The notes under the pieces are model-generated. The model did no database searches and had not been told where the DNA came from. It saw only the letters and a program-made list of their open reading frames with translations. Shown here piece after piece: positions 1,599 through 15,169 of a stretch of DNA of 64,000 nucleotides (position 1 is its first letter; each line of letters starts with the position of its first letter). This stretch comes from Candidatus Saccharimonadota bacterium (GTDB lineage: Bacteria > Patescibacteriota > Saccharimonadia > Saccharimonadales > UBA4665): assembly GCA_028289125.1 (NCBI GenBank), contig JAQGGZ010000010.1, positions 62,001-126,000 of the forward strand, read 5' to 3'. A program made the position numbers and the translations under genes.

Positions 1599-4500
1599 AT
1601 GTTAAGTCCGGCCAGAAAATGGCTCGGCTTTTTATTCAGCACACTTCGAAGACAGTACGGACGTTTATCACTAACGGCGAAGCGTTTCCTGATATTCATG
1701 CTCTGCGTACTGAGCACCGGCATACTGAATCTGGACCTGGGCGGCCGTGCGACGGCAGCGCTCGATGCCGGTAAATCACAGTATTTAATTTCGATAGGCC
1801 CGGTCACAGGCTCTGCGACGGCCGCATATACCTATGCCAGTTTTTATAACCCCGTCAATAGCGGCAAGACGCTGGTGGCGAAACATATCCGCTTCGGGTC
1901 GGACGCAATCGCAGCCGCCACTTATCAGGACTTGGTATTAAGCCGGGTATCGACGGCCGCCGGCGGAACGCAGATCGCAGCCGCGAATATTCCGAAAAAA
2001 AATGCCGATTCGATCAACAGTGTCGCTGAAGTCCGCTATGCCGGTGTCAGTGCGACAGTCACCGGCACCGCCGACTCGCGTCTGATGGCTGAAGTCGCCG
2101 CCGGGGCGGCCGGAAGTACGAAAGATTCCCGTGACTATACGTTTACCGGTCAGCAACTGGTGCTTCAGCCGGGCGAGGGCATATCACTTAGTCAAACGGC
2201 CGCCGGCAGCACGAACCAACGGATCCGACTTTCGGTTGAATGGGAGGAGACCAATGTTACGCCAGCCGCCGGAAACGATTACATGTTGGCGTTTCCGCGC
2301 GTGTCGAACGCAGCGGCCACTAACTACGTCTATCAGTCACTGTATAATCCGGTGGGGTCCGGTAGGACGGCGACGATCTCCCGTCTGAGTATCGACGTCG
2401 ACTGTAACGCTGCCGCGGTCTATACCAATCAGGTTTACATTCGGCGGACTACCGCTGCCTCGGCCGGTACGCAGATCGCTTCGGCAAACATTCCAGAGCG
2501 CCATTCAGGGGCGGCCAATTCGGTCATGGAAACAAGGTACCAGGGAGTGACGGTTACCTTGGCGGGCACGACTAACTCCGCTATCGAACAGGTATCACCC
2601 TGTGGTGCCGCCAACGAACCGCAAGGTCATGTTGAAAACACCTATGGCGGTACCAGTGAATCCATCGTCTTGCAGCCGGGCGAGGGGATCGCCCTCATAT
2701 CATCGGCCGCCGGCAGCACGGGCCAGCTGGTACGTATGTCCGCCGTCTGGAGCGAACAGGCCAGCGCACCAACGGCACAGGGAGATTACAGCTTCTCGGC
2801 TGGTCCAATCACAGGTACGGCGACCTCCGGATACGGGTACGTCTCATTCTTCAATCCGGCCGCATCAGGCAAAACAGCTGTCATCCACCGTTTGAATATG
2901 TCGGCGGATACGATTGCCGCCGGTGTAGCAGTCGCCTTATCGATCGAGCGGACTACCGCTGCCTCGGCCGGTACGCAGGTGCCGGCTACGGACGTTCCTA
3001 AGAATCATTCTTCTACGGCCACCAGCATCATGGATATCAGGACAGCTAACCCGACGGTCACGAAAGTAGGGACCGCGGCGGCCCGTCTGGCTACGGTCGA
3101 TACTCCGGCTGCCGTGGGACAGCTGAACGGGCGTTATTTTCGGGATTTCGGTAGTGATGGACCGCTAGTATTACAACCTGGCGAAGGCATCGTGCTGTAT
3201 CAGGAAGCTGCCGGTAGTACCAACTTTAAAATCAAACTTAGCCTCGAATGGGCGGAGCAGGTAGCGGTCCCGGCAACCACGAACGAATACATGTTGAGCG
3301 CCGGCCCGATAGCCGGAACGGCGACGTCCGGCTATGCCTATGTGGCCCTGATGAATCCAACCGGTTCAGGTAAGACCATGGTATTCACCCGCTTCGGCGT
3401 GGACCAGAACTCCACGGCCGCCGGTGTATACGTACCGATGACCGCTCAAAGGATTTCTGCCGCTTCGGCCGGTACTTTGCTTGCGGCCACTGATATGCCC
3501 GAAAAACACTCGGGTACCGGCACAAGTGTCATAAACGTGCGAACCACCGGGGTGACCACGACTAAGACCGGCGGTGCGAACTCCCGCCTGTATTCGGTGA
3601 CTACCCCGGGAGCGGCCGGTACGGCCACCTCACCGCAGGTATCGGGGGACACATCGTATGATTTCGCGAGTTCGGAGCCTCTCGTTCTGCAGCCTGGTGA
3701 AGGTGTCGTCGTATATCAGGAGGCCGCTGGTAGCACCAGCCTGAAAGTGCGTGTCATGGCGGAATGGTATGAGCAGGCCGCGGTGCCGACCAGCCAAGGT
3801 GAGTATGCCTTTACGACGGCTCCTATTACCGGCTCGACGGCTGCGAATTATACGTATAGTTCGTTCTTTAATCCGGTCGCATCCGGCAAGAGTTACGTCG
3901 TCAAACGTATCGAACAACGTATTGACCGTGTCGGTGCCACGACGGCTCCGAATTACATCAGTGCTTCCGTACGGCGTATCACCGCGGCGTCGGCCGGAAC
4001 GGCCGTTACGACGACCGATATACCAGAAAAAAATTCCGCCTCGGCTACCAGCACGGCAGACATTAGGACGGCCAACCCGACGGTAACGCTGGCCGGCACG
4101 GCCGATTCACGCTACCTCGGGGCGACGGTGCCTGGTGCCGTCGGTCAGGATAGCGGACTGAACGAACAGGAAATCATCGCCGGCGAGGAAATCGTGCTGG
4201 CTCCAGGCGAAGGTATCGCACTGTATCAGGAAGCTGCTGCCGGCGATACCAACGTCAAGGTGATGCTTCGTCTTGTCTGGTCAGAAGTTGCCGCAACGAC
4301 GACCACTACCGCACAGGCCAGTTATCGGGTGAACCAGCAGACTTCAGCGTCTCCTAACAATACGCTGGTGAGTACGTGGGGAGGAACGGGCGAGGACAGC
4401 GCGGCGTCCACGGCGATGCTATCAGACGGTGGCTATATCACTGCCGGCACGACTACCAGTTACGGAGCGGGTCAAAGTGATATATTAGTCAATCGATTCG

Positions 4501-7331
4501 ATAACAGCGGAAACGTAGCATGGAGCCGCACCTGGGGAGGTACGCTTGACGACGTGGCTTGGGGCATAGCGGCTACCTCCGACGGAGGCATGGCCGTAAC
4601 CGGCTATACGTCTAGTTATGGCAGTGGCAGTCAGGATGCGGTGATAATCAAATACGACAGCGCCGGCACCCTGTTGTGGAGCCGCACCTGGGGAGGAACT
4701 GCGGCTGATAACGCCTATTCCATCGTACAGACACCGGATGGCGGACTGGCCATAACGGGCACTACCAGTTCATACGGTAGCGAAGTTTTTCTGGCGCGAT
4801 ACGACAGCGCCGGCACCCTGTTGTGGAGCCGCACCTGGGGAGGGACCTCGACGGATTACTCCAATAGCTTGGCTGTCACCACCGACGGTGGTTTCGTGAT
4901 AGGTGTCGGCACGAACAGTTTCGGTGCCGGTAGTGCTGATGCAGGCCTCGTCCGCTATGACGCTAATGGAAATCTGTTATGGAGCCGTGTGTGGGGCGGT
5001 ACGAGTTTTGATTTTGCAAATGACGTCGCCGTCACGCAGGACGGCGGTTACGTGCTTATTGGGACTACCAGTTCGTATGGTGTGGGCGGGGGGCTGGACG
5101 ATAGTTTTATAGCCCGCTATGACAGCAACGGCACCTTGCAGTGGAGCCGTTTGTGGGGAGGCACCGGGTCGGACGAAGCATATAGCGTAAGTATAACCGC
5201 GGACGGCGGTATCGCAGTCGGTGGCTATACGAACAGTTTTGGCGCGAGCAATGATAATTTCCTGTTACGTTATGATTCGGGTGGAACGTTCTTGTGGAAC
5301 CGCAGCTGGGGAGGTGCGGGCGCTGAAGCCGCTTACACAGTTGAAGCAACTCCTGATGGCGGCGTAGCAATAGGCGGCCAAACGGCCAGTATAGGCAACG
5401 GAAGCAATGACATTTTGATGACGCGTTATGACAGTGCCGGCACCATCGCCAACTGTAGCGCGTCTTGTGCGACGCCGACCGCCACGACTTCGACGCCGGT
5501 TCCGACTAACTCTTCACCGGCCGGCACAAACACGACTGTCGCGGCGGGTACGACTACCCCTACGCCTACGACTACCGCCCCCGTAACCGCGGCTACGATC
5601 GTGACCGCTGCCGTTCCCCTCACAGTGACAGCCGGAACGGCACTGGCGGCCACGAATACCGCCGCTACGTTACCAGGTACGATGTTCGATATCCGCATGC
5701 GTATTTCTGTCGGTATGATGCATGCCAACGCCAACGCCCTGACGCTGAAACTTCAGTATGCGGCCAGAGGAGCCGACAACGTCTGTGACACCAGTTTTAC
5801 CAACGAGACATATGCCGATGTCACCACCACGACGACTCAGCCGATAAGCTACTATGACAACCCGACGTTCACCAGCGGCCTGCCGGTGAATACGGATTCC
5901 AAGGACCCGACGAACAACTCGGCGACCGCGGTCGTTCAGACCTATAACGAAAGCAATAACTTCAGTAATTCCAAATCAGCTATCCCGGCAGGGCAGGACG
6001 GCCTGTTTGATTTTTCATTACAGAGCAGTGCTGCCCCCGGCGCGACACACTATTGCTTCAGGGTAGTCAAATCAGATAACTCATTGCTCAATACGTACAG
6101 TGCCATTCCTGACATAACGACCGCGGCGGTAGTCCCGCCAAACTCGCCCACATCATTGGCACAGACCAAAACTACCGCTGTCGATATTACGTCGGGGGGC
6201 TGGACCAATGAGATGAGCGTACGTTTTGCCGCCTCGGCGACCGATCCGAGCAGCAGCACCAATCTGCGACTCTGCGTAGAGAAGCAACCTCTTGGTACGG
6301 GTTTCGCAGGTGTCGAAGACCTGTGTGGGACACCGGTTGCTTACACGGGGGCGGCCGTAACGCCGACGGTGACGGTGACAGGCCTGTCCAATGGTAGTCA
6401 GTACCACTGGCAAGCCCGACTGAAGAACACGAATAACTGGGCTTCGGCCTGGGTCTCGTATGACGTGAATGCTGAGACGGCCCGCGATTTCGGTGTCGAT
6501 ACGACGGCGCCGACCGGCGGAACGGTCTATGACGGTACAGCTGCCGGCATAGATGGCTCATTAAACGATGCTTCACTGACGACCCTGTCTGCGAACTGGA
6601 GCGGCATCGATAGTACTACTTCCGGCCTCGCGGGATATGAATATGCCGTAGGTACCGCCGCCGGTGGCAGCAATGTCAAAAGCTGGACCAGCGTAGCGAC
6701 CGCGACGACGATGACTGACTCTACGTTAACGCTCCATACGTCGCAGATGTATTACGTGTCGGTTCGTACGACTGATGCTGCCGGTAATGTCAGCCCGCCG
6801 ATATCTTCGAACGGCCAGCTGGTAGCACCGACCGTCAGTTTTGGGGTCAGTCCGGCCAGCCTTACCTTCGGGCGGCTCAATGCGGCTAATGCCTTTACCA
6901 ATTCACAGACTACGACGCTTACGACCAGCACCAACGCCTACGGCGGGTATGTGATTCGTGCTTATAATACCGATCTGCTACGGGCGTCGAACAATGCGAC
7001 GGTCGGTATGTTCAACGGTGCGACGTACACAGTACCTAATACCTGGCAGGCTGGTAATACCGGCCTCGGCTACACATCAAGTGCGCTGACAGTCCAAGGG
7101 GTCAATAAGTTCAGCCCAACGACCTGCGCCGGCGGTGGAGCGCCACCGTGCTATGTGCCGTTCACGCTGACAGCACCGGGCGACATCGTGGCTGACCACA
7201 CCGGAAACGTGTCAGGTCTACCGATTCAAAACGAAGTATTTACGCTGACCTACCAGGTCACCACGCCTGCAACCCAGGCTGCCAGTACCTATAGAACGGC
7301 TACGATTTATACCATAACCCCGATATATTGA
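1599..7331 (+). CDS. Giant secreted repeat protein (1910 aa), putative adhesin with a WxL-like C-terminal domain
   Basis: Residues about 30-45 form the hydrophobic core of a signal peptide. Five tandem repeats of about 168 residues follow (roughly 60-900), each with Y-FNP-SGK, a TTAASAGTQ segment and LQPGEGI. Next come seven repeats of about 52 residues (926-1282), each opening with a WGGT-like motif followed by DGG and a YDS turn, as expected for a seven-bladed beta-propeller. A Thr/Pro linker (1283-1350), two or three beta-sandwich, fibronectin-like modules (to about 1740) and a C-terminal domain (1745-1910) ending in IYTITPIY complete it. That last domain is shared with the protein at 8413-9510. 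The protein probably sits on the outer surface and binds a partner or host. It has no Cys-rich region and no LPXTG. It is the first gene of the five-gene surface cluster. Confidence 0.85.
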   Translation: MLSPARKWLGFLFSTLRRQYGRLSLTAKRFLIFMLCVLSTGILNLDLGGRATAALDAGKSQYLISIGPVTGSATAAYTYASFYNPVNSGKTLVAKHIRFGSDAIAAATYQDLVLSRVSTAAGGTQIAAANIPKKNADSINSVAEVRYAGVSATVTGTADSRLMAEVAAGAAGSTKDSRDYTFTGQQLVLQPGEGISLSQTAAGSTNQRIRLSVEWEETNVTPAAGNDYMLAFPRVSNAAATNYVYQSLYNPVGSGRTATISRLSIDVDCNAAAVYTNQVYIRRTTAASAGTQIASANIPERHSGAANSVMETRYQGVTVTLAGTTNSAIEQVSPCGAANEPQGHVENTYGGTSESIVLQPGEGIALISSAAGSTGQLVRMSAVWSEQASAPTAQGDYSFSAGPITGTATSGYGYVSFFNPAASGKTAVIHRLNMSADTIAAGVAVALSIERTTAASAGTQVPATDVPKNHSSTATSIMDIRTANPTVTKVGTAAARLATVDTPAAVGQLNGRYFRDFGSDGPLVLQPGEGIVLYQEAAGSTNFKIKLSLEWAEQVAVPATTNEYMLSAGPIAGTATSGYAYVALMNPTGSGKTMVFTRFGVDQNSTAAGVYVPMTAQRISAASAGTLLAATDMPEKHSGTGTSVINVRTTGVTTTKTGGANSRLYSVTTPGAAGTATSPQVSGDTSYDFASSEPLVLQPGEGVVVYQEAAGSTSLKVRVMAEWYEQAAVPTSQGEYAFTTAPITGSTAANYTYSSFFNPVASGKSYVVKRIEQRIDRVGATTAPNYISASVRRITAASAGTAVTTTDIPEKNSASATSTADIRTANPTVTLAGTADSRYLGATVPGAVGQDSGLNEQEIIAGEEIVLAPGEGIALYQEAAAGDTNVKVMLRLVWSEVAATTTTTAQASYRVNQQTSASPNNTLVSTWGGTGEDSAASTAMLSDGGYITAGTTTSYGAGQSDILVNRFDNSGNVAWSRTWGGTLDDVAWGIAATSDGGMAVTGYTSSYGSGSQDAVIIKYDSAGTLLWSRTWGGTAADNAYSIVQTPDGGLAITGTTSSYGSEVFLARYDSAGTLLWSRTWGGTSTDYSNSLAVTTDGGFVIGVGTNSFGAGSADAGLVRYDANGNLLWSRVWGGTSFDFANDVAVTQDGGYVLIGTTSSYGVGGGLDDSFIARYDSNGTLQWSRLWGGTGSDEAYSVSITADGGIAVGGYTNSFGASNDNFLLRYDSGGTFLWNRSWGGAGAEAAYTVEATPDGGVAIGGQTASIGNGSNDILMTRYDSAGTIANCSASCATPTATTSTPVPTNSSPAGTNTTVAAGTTTPTPTTTAPVTAATIVTAAVPLTVTAGTALAATNTAATLPGTMFDIRMRISVGMMHANANALTLKLQYAARGADNVCDTSFTNETYADVTTTTTQPISYYDNPTFTSGLPVNTDSKDPTNNSATAVVQTYNESNNFSNSKSAIPAGQDGLFDFSLQSSAAPGATHYCFRVVKSDNSLLNTYSAIPDITTAAVVPPNSPTSLAQTKTTAVDITSGGWTNEMSVRFAASATDPSSSTNLRLCVEKQPLGTGFAGVEDLCGTPVAYTGAAVTPTVTVTGLSNGSQYHWQARLKNTNNWASAWVSYDVNAETARDFGVDTTAPTGGTVYDGTAAGIDGSLNDASLTTLSANWSGIDSTTSGLAGYEYAVGTAAGGSNVKSWTSVATATTMTDSTLTLHTSQMYYVSVRTTDAAGNVSPPISSNGQLVAPTVSFGVSPASLTFGRLNAANAFTNSQTTTLTTSTNAYGGYVIRAYNTDLLRASNNATVGMFNGATYTVPNTWQAGNTGLGYTSSALTVQGVNKFSPTTCAGGGAPPCYVPFTLTAPGDIVADHTGNVSGLPIQNEVFTLTYQVTTPATQAASTYRTATIYTITPIY

Positions 7332-7341
7332 GTACCAAACT

Positions 7342-8331
7342 ATGAGCAGTCACCGATTTATAAGATATGGCAACGGCGCAAGACGACGGGCGTTTCTTAT
7401 ATGTTCCATCATGCTACTTGTCATTTCCGGCTCAGCGCATGCAGCGGCCCCGACCTCACAAGCTCCCGTGCAACGCCAATCGGCATTGGCGGTCGGGCCG
7501 GCCATCACAGAGCAGGTGCTGACGCCGGGCATGAAGACCACGGCTGTCGTCAGGGTGACCAATACGACCAGTTTTCCGTTGCCGATCAAAGGCAGCGTCA
7601 AAAATCTGACGCCGTTGGAAGATCTTTTGCCGACGGCTGATAAAGCCACCTACGACGCTTCCAGTTGGTTTGACCTGTCACCGGCAGATTTCATATTACA
7701 ACCGAACCAGACCAAAGATGTCGCAATCAGTATATCGCCGCCCAAAAAGGCTGCGCCGGGTGGCCATTACGCGACGGTATACTTTCAGCCGCTGATTCCC
7801 GACGAAGCATTATCGCCAAGCACAGCTTACCTGAATGCCCGGGTGGGCGTACTGGCGTTTCTGATCGTCAGAGGGAAGATTACCGAACAGGCTCGCATCG
7901 GACAGGTGTCAGTGAATAGGCTATCGCAACATGGACCGATCTCGCTCGGTATAGGGATTACCAATGCCGGCAACGTCCACATGCTTCCGGAGGGTCAGCT
8001 GACCATTCGTGATATGCATGGCACGGTCATGTCGACGCAAAAAATTCCCTATGGGCTCGTATTGCCGCAGACGGTCAGAAAATATCAATGGAACTGGGAC
8101 AACAAGGGAAAAATCGGATATTACACCGCGCAGGTCCGGTTCACGTATGGCGCCGATAAGACGTCACTGCAGACAACCACCGTCGGCTTCTGGATCATAC
8201 CGTGGTTATCGCTCGGCATCACGCTTACGGCAGGTGCATTGATAACGTGGTTCGTCGTCAAAACCCGTCACCGCTGGAAAGCTGTCTGGCAGGTCCTTCG
8301 CGGCCATGATGAGCCTAAAGAACAAGATTGA
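7342..8331 (+). CDS. Membrane-anchored DUF916/WxL-interacting-like protein (first copy)
   Basis: The 329-residue product has a signal peptide (about 15-35), two beta-sandwich domains, a transmembrane helix near 284-306 and a short basic cytoplasmic tail. The first domain contains the conserved pattern of an Ig-like fold with LTPGMKTTAVVRVTN and LQPNQTKDVAISI. The GGHYATVYF segment and the later NAGNVHMLPEG segment match the layout of DUF916/WxLIP proteins, which in Firmicutes hold WxL proteins at the wall. It starts ten bases after the giant gene, so the two are probably co-transcribed. A paralogue lies at 9551-10546. Family assignment rests on architecture and motif pattern, not on a search. 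Confidence 0.72.
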   Translation: MSSHRFIRYGNGARRRAFLICSIMLLVISGSAHAAAPTSQAPVQRQSALAVGPAITEQVLTPGMKTTAVVRVTNTTSFPLPIKGSVKNLTPLEDLLPTADKATYDASSWFDLSPADFILQPNQTKDVAISISPPKKAAPGGHYATVYFQPLIPDEALSPSTAYLNARVGVLAFLIVRGKITEQARIGQVSVNRLSQHGPISLGIGITNAGNVHMLPEGQLTIRDMHGTVMSTQKIPYGLVLPQTVRKYQWNWDNKGKIGYYTAQVRFTYGADKTSLQTTTVGFWIIPWLSLGITLTAGALITWFVVKTRHRWKAVWQVLRGHDEPKEQD

Positions 8332-8357
8332 CGTAGGCATAACCACTATGGTAGAAT
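8328..8357 (+). promoter_or_regulatory. Promoter for the WxL-like protein gene
   Basis: TTGACG (8328-8333), an 18 bp spacer and TAGAAT (8352-8357) preceded by TG one base upstream (extended -10). The -35 overlaps the TGA stop of the preceding gene. Transcription would start near 8364, leaving a leader of about 50 nt with an AAGAGGA Shine-Dalgarno before the ATG at 8413. This gives the abundant-looking surface protein its own promoter inside the cluster. Confidence 0.65.
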
Positions 8358-8412
8358 TCTCGCGAGGATACTTACACTTATATATCAGGTGAGTCTAAAG
8401 AGGAACAAACAA

Positions 8413-9510
8413 ATGAAAAAAAATATGCTGCCCCGACCATTATATCGAGGTATTGTTTCTGTCTTGGCGGTAGCGGTTTCGCTCGTACTGCTTGCGAACG
8501 CCGTGCAGGCAGCGACGCTGACGACAGCTTCAGTCAGCCTGTCCGACCCGCGACCGAGCACAACCACTGTCACATACGATTTCTTGGCAAGTAACATCTC
8601 GACAGGTACTTCCATCAAGTGCGTGAAACTGTTATTTTCTGCTAATGCCGACGGTACCGGCGGTGTGCCGACCGGTATGGACACGAGCGTCGCGGCCGTA
8701 GCCGTCAACGCTGCAGCTTCAACCCTGTTCTCCAGCCATGCCGGCTGGACACTGAACAAGACTACGAACGGCTCATTGCTTTACACAAACTCGACAGGCG
8801 CCGCGCCATCACTCGGCACCGCTGCCCACTTCGTCGTCAACGGCATCACCAACGGTTCGCAGGTCAACGTCAGCAAGTTCCTTGCGTTTTCCACCTACAC
8901 GAACACCGACTGTGTTACCGGCCCGACCGACAGCGTAACCACCGGGTTCATCTTTACCGATGGCCAGCAGGTCTCGATGAGTGTCGATGCGGCACTGACT
9001 TTCGCAGTAGCCGGTATCGCTGGTGACGGCGTTGCCACCGTCAACGGTTCGACGATCACGAACGGCCTGACCACTACTTCCAGTACCATCCCATTCACGA
9101 AACTGAGCTCATCAGCAAACCGTGTCGCAGCCCAGGACCTGACTGTATCAACCAACTCCGGCTTAGGATACACCGTTTCCACGCGATACACCGGCGTACC
9201 GACGTCAGGCAGCTATACGATTCCTGACCTGGCTACGGCAACTAACGCCAGCCCACTGGCTTTCTCTGCTGCAGGCACGGCTGCTTTTGGTTACACGACA
9301 AGTTCAACGACGCTCGGTACCGGCACGGCTAACCGGTTCAGTGGTGGTAAGTGGGCACCGTTCACGACAACAAATGCGGAAGTTGCTTACAACAATGCTG
9401 CCACAGCGGGCCAGACCACACGTATCGGCTTGCAGGCCGGAATCTCAGGCTCCACCGCGCCTGGTTCCTACACGACGACGGTAATCTACACGGCGACGCC
9501 GTTATACTAA
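8413..9510 (+). CDS. Secreted WxL-like surface protein (365 aa)
   Basis: A classical signal peptide (MKKNMLPRP start, hydrophobic about 14-28, cleavage after VQA) leads a Thr/Ser/Ala-rich all-beta protein. The C-terminal 165 residues, beginning around MSVDAALTF, align by eye with the last domain of the giant protein. They end in VIYTATPLY, against IYTITPIY there. I chose the ATG at 8413 over the GTG at 8389 because an AAGAGGA element lies 8 nt upstream. It has its own extended -10 promoter and sits between two DUF916-like genes. The layout parallels WxL proteins, but no WxL triplet pair is present. It is possibly a surface-layer or coat component. Confidence 0.75.
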   Translation: MKKNMLPRPLYRGIVSVLAVAVSLVLLANAVQAATLTTASVSLSDPRPSTTTVTYDFLASNISTGTSIKCVKLLFSANADGTGGVPTGMDTSVAAVAVNAAASTLFSSHAGWTLNKTTNGSLLYTNSTGAAPSLGTAAHFVVNGITNGSQVNVSKFLAFSTYTNTDCVTGPTDSVTTGFIFTDGQQVSMSVDAALTFAVAGIAGDGVATVNGSTITNGLTTTSSTIPFTKLSSSANRVAAQDLTVSTNSGLGYTVSTRYTGVPTSGSYTIPDLATATNASPLAFSAAGTAAFGYTTSSTTLGTGTANRFSGGKWAPFTTTNAEVAYNNAATAGQTTRIGLQAGISGSTAPGSYTTTVIYTATPLY

Positions 9511-9550
9511 AGGCCTTAGGCGCTATCGGCGCAGGGCATAATAGGGTAAA

Positions 9551-10546
9551 GTGAGTGGAATGCTTCACGAAATGAACCGCCGTTTAGGGTATCTCGGACG
9601 AGCCGGCAGGATTATCGTTGCTTGCGTGCTGACGATGGCGATCGCAGCCACGACGTTTACGCCGGCCTTTGCTGCCGAGGCCGTTCCAGCTCAACAGCCT
9701 GTCGGACTGACAGTATCTCCACCGACCTTTGAATTTTCGGCGAATCCGGGCGAGACCGTCAGCAACAGTATCCGCGTCGAAAACATCACCGACCAGCCGT
9801 TGGACGTATCCGTCGATGTGCGTAACTTCAGTGCACTTGGAGAAGAAGGTCAGGTCAACCTGACCAGTGAAGATAATCCATATGCGATGGCGGCGTGGGT
9901 CAAAGTCGCGCCAACGAAGGATACGATCGCCGCCAAGGACTCCAAGACGTTCGAATATACCATCACGGTCCCATCGAACGCCCAACCAGGCGGCCGATTC
10001 GGCTCGATCGTATTTAAGACGACACCGCAAGCCGTTTCAGAAGGCAGTGGTGTGGCAGTCGGTCAAGAAGTGGGCGCACTGATATTCATGAAAATCGCCG
10101 GTGATGTCCATGAGAATGCCAGCATCGTCGGTTTTAAGACGACTCAAAAATTATACGAATATGGCCCGGTGTCATTCGAGACACGGGTCAAGAACGACGG
10201 CAACGTCCAATTCAAACCGCAAGGTACCATCACTATTGCGAACATGTTCGGCAAGGTCGTTCAGACCATTCCTGTCGACTCGCGTAATGTATTACCGGGG
10301 GCGGTCCGAAAGATGGATGCTGAGTGGAAGAACAAATGGCTTTTCGGTCCGCACTCGGCGACCGTCTCGCTGGTGTACGGCAGTAAGGGCCAGATCATTA
10401 CCGCTACGACTACCTTCTGGGCGTTTCCGTACAAAATCGCACTTGTCGTGCTCGCCGGCATTTGTCTCTTAGCTTTCTTCGTCCGACGCAATCGCCGCCG
10501 GCTCTGGAAGGCACTCAAGGTACTGTTTTCCAAAGATCAGGCGTAG
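9551..10546 (+). CDS. Membrane-anchored DUF916/WxL-interacting-like protein (second copy)
   Basis: The 331-residue paralogue of the protein at 7342-8331 has a signal peptide, an N-terminal sandwich opening VGLTVSPPTFEFSANPGE, a second sandwich with VKNDGNVQFKPQG, a transmembrane helix near 296-315 and an Arg/Lys-rich tail. SPPTFEF and NPGET-SNSIRVEN are typical of DUF916-like N-terminal domains. The GTG at 9551 follows a CATAAT box (9537-9542) by 8 nt, so the transcript may be nearly leaderless. An ATG at 9560 is an alternative. Two paralogues flanking one substrate-like protein suggest specialised partners for the two IYTxTPxY proteins. Confidence 0.75.
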   Translation: MSGMLHEMNRRLGYLGRAGRIIVACVLTMAIAATTFTPAFAAEAVPAQQPVGLTVSPPTFEFSANPGETVSNSIRVENITDQPLDVSVDVRNFSALGEEGQVNLTSEDNPYAMAAWVKVAPTKDTIAAKDSKTFEYTITVPSNAQPGGRFGSIVFKTTPQAVSEGSGVAVGQEVGALIFMKIAGDVHENASIVGFKTTQKLYEYGPVSFETRVKNDGNVQFKPQGTITIANMFGKVVQTIPVDSRNVLPGAVRKMDAEWKNKWLFGPHSATVSLVYGSKGQIITATTTFWAFPYKIALVVLAGICLLAFFVRRNRRRLWKALKVLFSKDQA

Positions 10547-10553
10547 GTCTGGT

Positions 10554-11933
10554 ATGCGAAAAATACTTTTGGTGGCAGCGACCGTCCTCAGCTTGGCCAC
10601 ACTATCCGTACTCGCAGTAAGTGGCACTACACAAGCCGACGTCGCAGTCTCGCTACCTGTGGGCGACACGTTCATGAACGTGTCAGGCAAGACGTCGCCA
10701 CGAGCTTTCGTCACGATAAAAGATGACGATAACGTGATCGGCACTCTGACGGCCGAGGCAGACGGTACTTTTAGTAAGACCCTCGTGGCTCAGAGGCCAG
10801 GCATCCACACGCTGAGCATATATGCGCGTGATACCGATGACGAAATCAGCGATAGCGCTGTAGTCTCGGTGAGCCTGGCCGAACATGGCCAGACTAACAT
10901 CTCGGTCTTTTTGCCACCGACCATCGTGGTCTCGAGCCTGGTAACGAAGCCTGATGCCCAACTCAGCCTGAGCGGTATGACCGTGCCTGGCAGCACGGTA
11001 TTCCTCCGTATCGATGACATGACGTCAATGCAGGCTCAAGCCGACGCAGCAGGCAGATGGCAGATTATCATCAACCCAGGGCAGGTGAAGGGCGGCAACC
11101 ATAGTGTCTATGCCTTTGCGGCCGATAGCGATGGTACGCAGGGGTATCCTTCAGGCCCCCGCTTCTTTATGATACTGGCCGCTGAGGCATCATCCCCGGT
11201 TGGCGACCCTACGCGAAGCGTTTATCCCGCTCCAAGGATAACCGTTCCGACTGACAGGAGCGTCGTCCGCAGCCCGGTCATTGGCGTTGCCGGTCTGAGC
11301 GAACCCGGCGCGCAGATCGAGATATGGCGTAACCATCATCCGGTCGGGGCGGTATTTGCCGATACGATCGGTGGCTGGCTGATGAACGTCGCTCTTGAAA
11401 ATGGCGCGAATGAATTACAATCACGCGCTTGCAACAGTAAGGGTTGTAGCGAATTTTCAAAGTCTGTCATTGTGACGTACGCGGCGGATAAAGCGGTACG
11501 CGTACGTATGCAGGCGTCGCTTAATAACTATCGTTTCGAGCGGCCGGTCGGTAAGGCCTTGACGGTGGCAGTCAGGACGATCAACGGCACGGCACCCCTG
11601 ACCTACACATTTAATTGGGGGGACGGTGAGCACCAATCAGTTATCAGCAATGACCTCACAAGTGCCGCATCGCATGCCTATACCAAATCCGGCAATTACA
11701 CGGGTCATGTCCGAATCATAGATGCCGCTGGTCAACTGGTCGATATACCGTTCACGGTCGTGGTTACGAAGCCTTCGGCTTTCGGTAGCACCGTCGTACA
11801 ATCGGGCATCATCGGTATAAATGCCGTGCTGTTATATGCATTGTGTTGGACCATTGCGAATCATTCGCCGCTCGCGCCGCTGTTAGTCGGGAAGAAACAT
11901 AAGAAAAAGGTACCGAAGCGGCGTAAGGCCTGA
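10554..11933 (+). CDS. Ig-like and PKD-domain membrane protein of the surface cluster
   Basis: The 459-residue protein has a signal peptide, then about three beta-sandwich repeats of 80-90 residues with the GKTSPRAFVTIKDDD / GMTVPGSTVFLRIDD / GLSEPGAQIEIWRN signature of bacterial Ig-like domains. A PKD-type domain follows (NWGDGE, HAYTKSGNYT, near 340-395), then a transmembrane helix around 415-435 and a Lys/Arg-rich tail. It starts 7 nt after the second DUF916-like gene and closes the cluster. It is likely anchored in the membrane with its domains outside, perhaps as a scaffold or receptor. It lacks the IYTxTPxY tail. Confidence 0.72.
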   Translation: MRKILLVAATVLSLATLSVLAVSGTTQADVAVSLPVGDTFMNVSGKTSPRAFVTIKDDDNVIGTLTAEADGTFSKTLVAQRPGIHTLSIYARDTDDEISDSAVVSVSLAEHGQTNISVFLPPTIVVSSLVTKPDAQLSLSGMTVPGSTVFLRIDDMTSMQAQADAAGRWQIIINPGQVKGGNHSVYAFAADSDGTQGYPSGPRFFMILAAEASSPVGDPTRSVYPAPRITVPTDRSVVRSPVIGVAGLSEPGAQIEIWRNHHPVGAVFADTIGGWLMNVALENGANELQSRACNSKGCSEFSKSVIVTYAADKAVRVRMQASLNNYRFERPVGKALTVAVRTINGTAPLTYTFNWGDGEHQSVISNDLTSAASHAYTKSGNYTGHVRIIDAAGQLVDIPFTVVVTKPSAFGSTVVQSGIIGINAVLLYALCWTIANHSPLAPLLVGKKHKKKVPKRRKA

Positions 11934-14045: not shown

Positions 14046-15134
14046 TCAGTTATGAACTGCCCAGAACCCAGTACCGGAACCGAGTAGTACAGTAGGGGTG
14101 ACTAATGGGCGGTTTGAGCTGTCTACAAGTGTTATGGGATCGGCATTGCTGCCGGCGATAGTGGAAACGACACCGTTCCTGGTAGTGCTACCGTTCGTGA
14201 ATTTAACGTGATCAAAGTCGTTGAACGGTACTAAGGAGCCGTCGAGATAACTAGGATCTTCCTCGATCCATTCAGCCGAAGAGTAGCTTGAGGCATAATC
14301 CACGACCGTGGCATACGTCTGGCCGCTGGTGGTATTCGTGATGGTGATATTCCACTTATGACTGGGCAGCTCGCTGATCGATGCGGCCATCGTATCGCCG
14401 GCTTTGACATTGAATGACGTCAGGGCCATGGCTGGCGCGGGTAGCAATTCGTAAAAGGCTGAAACGGTCACGGTCCCATCCGGGTCGACCATGTTGAAGG
14501 TGCCTGTCTGTATAAGGTCATCAGTGCTTACACCGCCGATGCCAATCCAGGCGGCGTCTCCGGTCGTCTCCGAACCGTTGCCCGTCACCGTCGGTACGAT
14601 CCAAGACCCTGAGACGGCTGTGAACTTACCGGTCATGGCCGCATAGCCGGCCCAATTGGACGAGTAGTAGCCGCTGGTAACCAGGGCAGGTGTGCTGCTG
14701 GCGGTATTGGAATCATTTTGAGAAGCAGCACTCTGATCAGGCGTGGCGGGGGCGGGGGCGGGCGCAGCCGCTGGCGTCGGTACGAGCTTTTTGGCGCCTG
14801 ACCCGGGCGATGGCTGCGTTGGGGCTACCGGTGTCGGGCTGGGCTGAGGCGCCACCGGTTTTGGTGCCGGTGCCGTAACGGCCGGAGTAGCTACCGGTGC
14901 TGGTGCTGGAGGCGGTGTGGGCTTCTTGGCGGTAGGCTTTGTGGCCGGGGCCGGTGCGACACTCGTCGGAGATGCTACGACAGGTGTAGGGTTGTGACGA
15001 ATCGGCGTGACGGTTACCACGGTCGTAACCGCGCCGGTAACGATAAACACGCCAAGGCTTACTTCAGCGGCCAAGCGCAGTATATGATGTAACCGGTAAT
15101 TTGCCCACATGAGGAGCAACCGCTGTCTGAACAT
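14046..15134 (-). CDS. Membrane-anchored eqolisin-like (family G1) glutamic peptidase
   Basis: The 362-residue protein has an N-terminal transmembrane segment (about 20-45), a long Pro/Ala/Thr-rich linker to about 150, and a C-terminal beta-sandwich domain. That domain has the G1 landmarks: SSNWAGYAA near its start, WIGIGGV, a Gln in DDLIQTGTF and a Glu in SAEWIEEDPS. These match the positions of the catalytic Gln and Glu in fungal eqolisins. These enzymes cleave proteins at acid pH. I chose the ATG at 15134; a GTG two codons upstream is possible. The Pro-rich stalk would let the domain reach through a cell wall. This is a surface protease, perhaps for nutrition or host contact. Confidence 0.82.
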   Translation of the reverse strand: MFRQRLLLMWANYRLHHILRLAAEVSLGVFIVTGAVTTVVTVTPIRHNPTPVVASPTSVAPAPATKPTAKKPTPPPAPAPVATPAVTAPAPKPVAPQPSPTPVAPTQPSPGSGAKKLVPTPAAAPAPAPATPDQSAASQNDSNTASSTPALVTSGYYSSNWAGYAAMTGKFTAVSGSWIVPTVTGNGSETTGDAAWIGIGGVSTDDLIQTGTFNMVDPDGTVTVSAFYELLPAPAMALTSFNVKAGDTMAASISELPSHKWNITITNTTSGQTYATVVDYASSYSSAEWIEEDPSYLDGSLVPFNDFDHVKFTNGSTTRNGVVSTIAGSNADPITLVDSSNRPLVTPTVLLGSGTGFWAVHN

Positions 15135-15169
15135 TTCCACTTCTGTTTGTGTCTTTAAGGGTTAGAATT

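Follow-up and report, generated by a model that had tools for sequence, protein, structure and literature searches.

A divergent relative of the Pam pilus operon with a giant candidate tip adhesin in a Patescibacterial genome

The gene cluster described here is a paralogue of the Pam pilus system, so far diverged that the curated models do not call it, and it probably encodes a second Pam-type pilus or fibre, which would be built by donor-strand assembly and would carry an exchangeable tip adhesin (g1) on a base (g5). It lies in a 64,000-nucleotide stretch (contig C8, positions 62001-126000; hereafter the window) of the 874-kb genome, assembled in 11 contigs, of an ultrasmall epibiotic Patescibacterium. 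The label "pilus" comes, for the Pam system, from the names of NCBIfam models. The cluster is best filed as a Pam-pilus-related variant, neither an unknown kind of system nor a WxL system.

Five co-directional plus-strand genes, g1 to g5, fill positions 1599-11933 of the window, as the initial annotation had read them, with all reading frames open and intergenic gaps of 7-81 bases. The features are as follows:

1599..7331, + strand: g1, giant secreted protein of 1910 residues; predicted tip adhesin
6579..7331, + strand: pilin-like C-terminal domain of g1, with the terminus YRTATIYTITPIY
7342..8331, + strand: g2, WxLIP-like membrane protein of 329 residues; predicted chaperone/assembly factor
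8413..9510, + strand: g3, secreted two-domain pilin-like subunit of 365 residues (373 residues from an alternative upstream GTG start at 8389); predicted fibre subunit
9551..10546, + strand: g4, WxLIP-like membrane protein of 331 residues; predicted chaperone/assembly factor
10554..11933, + strand: g5, PamR-like protein of 459 residues with Ig, PKD and C-terminal TM segments; predicted base/anchor subunit

Hydropathy analyses divide the products in the way first proposed, into two exported proteins with a similar C-terminal strand and three membrane-anchored ones. While g1 and g3 have an N-terminal signal segment alone, without a membrane anchor, g2, g4 and g5 combine such a segment with one C-terminal TM segment and a basic tail. 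Among the cluster genes, neither an usher nor any other component for secretion was recognised, which counts against the pilus reading. A sortase-assembled pilus is extremely improbable and was rejected: the genome does encode at least six sortase-domain proteins, but LPxTG is absent from all five proteins of the cluster, the nearest sortase gene, on contig C8, is about 40 kb away rather than adjacent, and the conserved clusters of other genomes showed no recognisable sortase gene either.

The Pam models used here were those of NCBIfam (June 2026), namely NF058578 for PamR (cut-off 300), NF058579 for PamT and NF058581 for the pilin C-terminal domain (cut-off 55). The Pam-pilin family includes both g3 and the C-terminal domain of g1. 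Against NF058581 (CPR_Pam_pilin_C), g3 scored 27-30 bits, far below the cut-off. In profile-profile comparisons, whose E-values stem from single pairwise comparisons of shallow profiles and are to be read as ranks, g3 matched the canonical Pam pilins over its full length (E 1.5e-31, 321 columns). The C-terminal domain of g1 matched g3 (E 2.4e-22, 217 columns), bearing out the resemblance between the two termini in the initial annotation, and also matched the canonical pilins (E 4e-11). In the tree, the g3-type pilins and the canonical ones fall into separate clades (100/100 each).

The pilin domains share a C-terminal code composed of G at -15, Y at -13, a hydrophobic residue at -9, an aromatic residue at -7 and a terminal Y or F. 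Each of the 77 non-redundant proteins collected with a pilin domain has Y or F as its last residue; 76 have Y at -13, and 67 have G at -15. As the background frequency of a terminal F, Y or W is 8.5% over 422 other ORFs, this ending is a family trait and not a product of chance. The pilins of chaperone-usher systems carry a comparable code, with a Gly 14 residues from the end and a penultimate Tyr, which docks to the chaperone. The predicted model of g3 comprises two beta domains (pLDDT 86.6, pTM 0.51), and its best structural matches in Foldseek were diffuse, being MSCRAMM adhesins and cohesins rather than pilins. In view of their low TM-scores we set these matches aside as assignments, although the lack of pilins among them makes a non-polymerising adhesin platform possible. 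No relative emerged when PDB sequences were searched with the profiles of g3, g4 and the canonical pilins.

Searching the same genome with the pilin and PamR models located a second cluster, a typical Pam operon on contig C5. Its parts are PamT, a long pilin (under the cut-off), a pilin, a WxLIP-like protein and PamR; PamT, two pilins (pilin domains of 158 and 142 bits) and PamR (395 bits) are above the curated cut-offs, and the operon also holds the second match to PF06030 in the genome. The order of pilin, WxLIP-like protein and PamR in this operon is that of g3, g4 and g5 in the window. The two systems have in common pilin-family subunits with the same C-terminal code, together with a WxLIP-like membrane protein and a PamR-like protein in the same order. 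On the other hand, the window cluster has two WxLIP-like genes instead of one and a giant adhesin that ends in a pilin domain, it stays below every curated Pam cut-off, and none of the window proteins matches PamT (NF058579). Taken together, the relation of g3 to CPR_Pam_pilin_C, that of g5 to CPR_pilus_PamR and the presence of the C5 cluster establish the window cluster as a divergent relative of the Pam system, and the trees place its operon phylogenetically apart from the typical one in the same genome. The initial annotation had called the system undescribed; this is too strong, because its parent is the CPR "Pam pilus" of NCBIfam, with a typical operon encoded elsewhere in the genome.

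The two membrane proteins g2 and g4 are members of the WxLIP family (DUF916-DUF3324-TM), as had been suspected from their DUF916-like pattern. Against PF06030 (WxLIP_PGBD/DUF916), g4 scored 26-28 bits, around the cut-off of 27.3, and g2 remained under it (E 0.045). Profile-profile comparisons with Firmicutes WxLIPs gave E 6.5e-8 for g4, over 220 columns that cover both Ig domains, and E 1.8e-6 for g2, and the two proteins matched each other with E 2e-52. The predicted model of g4 (pLDDT 88.6, pTM 0.70) has as its best PDB match in Foldseek the solved Enterococcus WxLIP 9i1y (E 4e-11), followed by 9i25, a complex of WxLIP with a long WxL protein, and then by the pilus chaperones CfaA (CFA/I), CsuC, FimC and Caf1M. 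The structural likeness to DUF916, whose absence would have counted against the first reading, is thus present, and the predicted fold suggests a PapD-like chaperone of two Ig domains. The tree resolves supported clades for g2 (99/95), g4 (99/96) and the canonical WxLIP-like proteins (100/99), with the Firmicutes proteins separate. Another deep WxLIP-like clade (L022 5193-6068, L023 8732-9670 and L024 8366-9274) adjoins other large secreted proteins and canonical pilins, which suggests further subtypes. Tandem WxLIP-like pairs or triplets also occur in other Saccharimonadales (G062:C4:310979-312890, G054:C10:43043-44936 and G071:C3:73831-76803).

The parallel with the WxL clusters of Firmicutes, drawn from the gene layout, proved apt as an analogy. 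As in the WxL/Csc clusters, a large and a small secreted protein with a common C-terminal domain accompany a membrane-anchored DUF916-DUF3324-TM protein, the homologous WxLIP, so that the gene repertoire is matched (PMC10599100, PMC9772566). Differences from these clusters are the lack of a detectable WxL domain and of an LPxTG protein, the PamR-like gene and the presence of two WxLIPs. PF13731 (WxL) had no match in the whole genome or in 26 members of the g3 family, in line with the absence of WxL motifs reported initially. An LPxTG partner is usual, and not universal, in WxL systems. When the pilin domain was compared with a profile of 16 WxL proteins from plasmids, the probability was at most 2.2%, no better than the PKD control, and restricting the comparison to the YxV-bearing WxL subset brought no improvement. 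With the PF13731 scans empty and the profile comparison no better than the best of the unrelated beta-sandwich controls, these several lines of testing failed to establish direct WxL homology of g3 and g1.

These comparisons bear on a second reading of the cluster, a WxL-type wall-display platform in which g2 and g4 would hold g3 and g1 at the wall through the common C-terminal domain, unpolymerised, the WxL tryptophans having become tyrosines. Beyond the shared repertoire and the WxLIP homology of g2 and g4, the C-terminal register would agree with it: WxL tails ending in ..AP have G-15, Y-13, [LIV]-9, W-7 and L-5, and the pilins have G-15, Y-13, [LIV]-9, Y-7 and A-5. The spacing from the GY motif to Y-7 is mostly 99-110 residues in pilins, compared with about 106 reported for the motifs of small WxL proteins (PMC9772566). 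However, given the WxL results above and the strong, full-length homology of g3 to Pam pilins, we consider wall display unlikely. The kinship of the exported proteins with Pam pilins favours a pilus or fibre over the parallel WxL-like surface display that was originally proposed. In WxL proteins of Companilactobacillus and Pediococcus (L053 3241-3831 and L054 5473-6072), GYTV replaces the first WxL motif, and these are the same residues as in Pam pilins.

The last gene, g5, had been described as a generic Ig/PKD membrane protein. Pfam confirms the Ig (Big_6/Big_13), PKD and C-terminal TM segments, but the protein is more than generic, as it belongs to the PamR family: it matches NF058578 (CPR_pilus_PamR) with 82 bits over residues 226-395, far below the cut-off, and the low scores of g3 and g5 count against a Pam-type pilus. 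While the Saccharibacterial g5 proteins have fused PKD and TM segments, those of WWE3 and Woesebacteria are shorter, with a terminal dockerin or EF-hand-like repeat, and a cohesin gene comes directly after them. The g5 of L040 carries a dockerin (PF00404) above the cut-off and that of L036 a weak EF-hand; the cohesin gene that follows g5 is above the cut-off in L036, L038 and L040. These g5-cohesin regions are:

L036 12105-14101, L038 12493-15095, L040 12093-14748: WWE3/Woesebacteria g5 with the cohesin gene

This natural exchange of anchors, a TM segment in one lineage and a dockerin-cohesin pair in the other, suggests that g5 is the anchoring base.

The giant protein g1 consists of about five N-terminal beta repeats, a delta-60/SBBP-type beta-propeller (about residues 925-1285), an Ig-like region and the C-terminal pilin-like domain. 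In its relatives the heads vary, being laminin-G lectin, PA14, glycine-rich, FG-GAP, DUF7483 or Ig, while the C-terminal pilin domain is conserved. Two-domain tip adhesins are laid out in this way, with a variable N-terminal head joined to a conserved pilin domain, and from this we infer a tip position for g1.

Based on these assignments, a donor-strand mechanism may be envisaged. Once exported, g3 and g1 would be captured on the outer side of the membrane by the tethered two-Ig-domain proteins g2 and g4, which may act in the manner of PapD or FimC by completing the beta sandwich of the subunit. Donor-strand exchange would then put the N-terminal strand of the following g3 in place of g2 or g4, g1 would cap the fibre as a tip adhesin with its pilin domain at the C-terminus and its variable head at the N-terminus, as in the FimH arrangement, and g5 would tie the base to the membrane. 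The system would probably serve to recognise and attach to the host cell of the epibiont. We infer the exchange, the assembly mechanism and the host-recognition role. Common to this scheme and the chaperone-usher pili (FimC/PapD, CsuC, CfaA) are the two-Ig-domain chaperone fold of the g4 model, a C-terminal strand with a conserved Gly and a terminal aromatic residue, and an adhesin with a C-terminal pilin domain. The window cluster differs from them in its membrane-tethered chaperone, in having no usher in the cluster and in the lack of a sequence match to their pilins. AlphaFold work on WxL systems predicts that a hairpin strand of WxLIP completes the WxL sandwich (PMC10599100), and the TasA/TapA fibre of Bacillus is a donor-strand fibre of a monoderm that has a helper protein (PMC10151520). 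The Bacillus fibre, however, has a different gene set, and the Pfam scans gave no TasA sequence match.

Among 119 relatives, PamR above the cut-off was present in 68, and the window type in nine (G000, G025, G075, G083, G094, G102, G105, G109 and G117), all nine of which also have an above-cut-off PamR elsewhere. A scan of 84,980 species yielded 20 loci, among them loci of WWE3, Woesebacteria and other Patescibacteria. Fifteen complete clusters, which come from Saccharibacteria, WWE3, Woesebacteria and further Patescibacteria, keep the order of giant, WxLIP, pilin(s), WxLIP and PamR-like protein; another five are cut short where a contig ends, have no called g2 or show a rearrangement. The conserved linkage that a neighbourhood survey had been proposed to look for is therefore found in at least 15 complete clusters. 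Strong relatives of g3 (>300 bits) occur in 7 of 380 genomes spread over the phylum, which indicates a scattered accessory system. Presence in only about 2% of the sampled genomes of the phylum, together with scores under the curated cut-offs, would also suit a copy of the typical Pam operon that has diverged or is decaying and plays no role of its own. Nevertheless, the five frames are intact, gene order and motifs are conserved across phyla and each component tested forms a supported clade of its own, and we regard this reading as very unlikely.

Horizontal transfer between WWE3/Woesebacteria and the window lineage, suggested by the g2 tree, was set aside after the g3 test left a single Saccharibacterial clade unrejected (p 0.17). 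A third arrangement, with a PamR-like gene first and then three g3-type pilins, was observed at L034 7925-14591 and L039 7667-13421; L034 also has a g4-type WxLIP, and the giant and g2 were not seen on the stretches of these contigs that were examined.

Type IV pili have so far been the leading candidates for how epibiotic Patescibacteria choose and hold their hosts. The cluster adds a second, separate candidate for host attachment, a conserved putative fibre system whose predicted tip protein differs between lineages, and the present curated models would miss a cluster of this type. It also connects the WxL-interacting proteins of Firmicutes, the role of which is debated, with the pilus-chaperone-like proteins of CPR. 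More speculatively, and with considerable doubt, WxL clusters of Firmicutes, CPR Pam pili and the giant-adhesin type might form a single superfamily of donor-strand fibres that single-membrane bacteria build with membrane-bound chaperones and no usher, and in which the exchangeable giant tip of the Patescibacterial members would decide the host.

Two further observations concern the surroundings of the cluster. At 14046-15140 on the minus strand, the window encodes a secreted protein with a Peptidase_A4 (glutamic peptidase) domain (E 1.5e-36), which is odd in a genome this reduced. About 3.8-7.6 kb ahead of the window, on the minus strand (L012 2437-6238), a gene for a GlxA/galactose-oxidase-like protein overlaps one for a family-2 glycosyltransferase. 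This overlap recalls the cslA-glxA pair of Streptomyces, and a transfer of the two genes from an actinobacterial host is possible.
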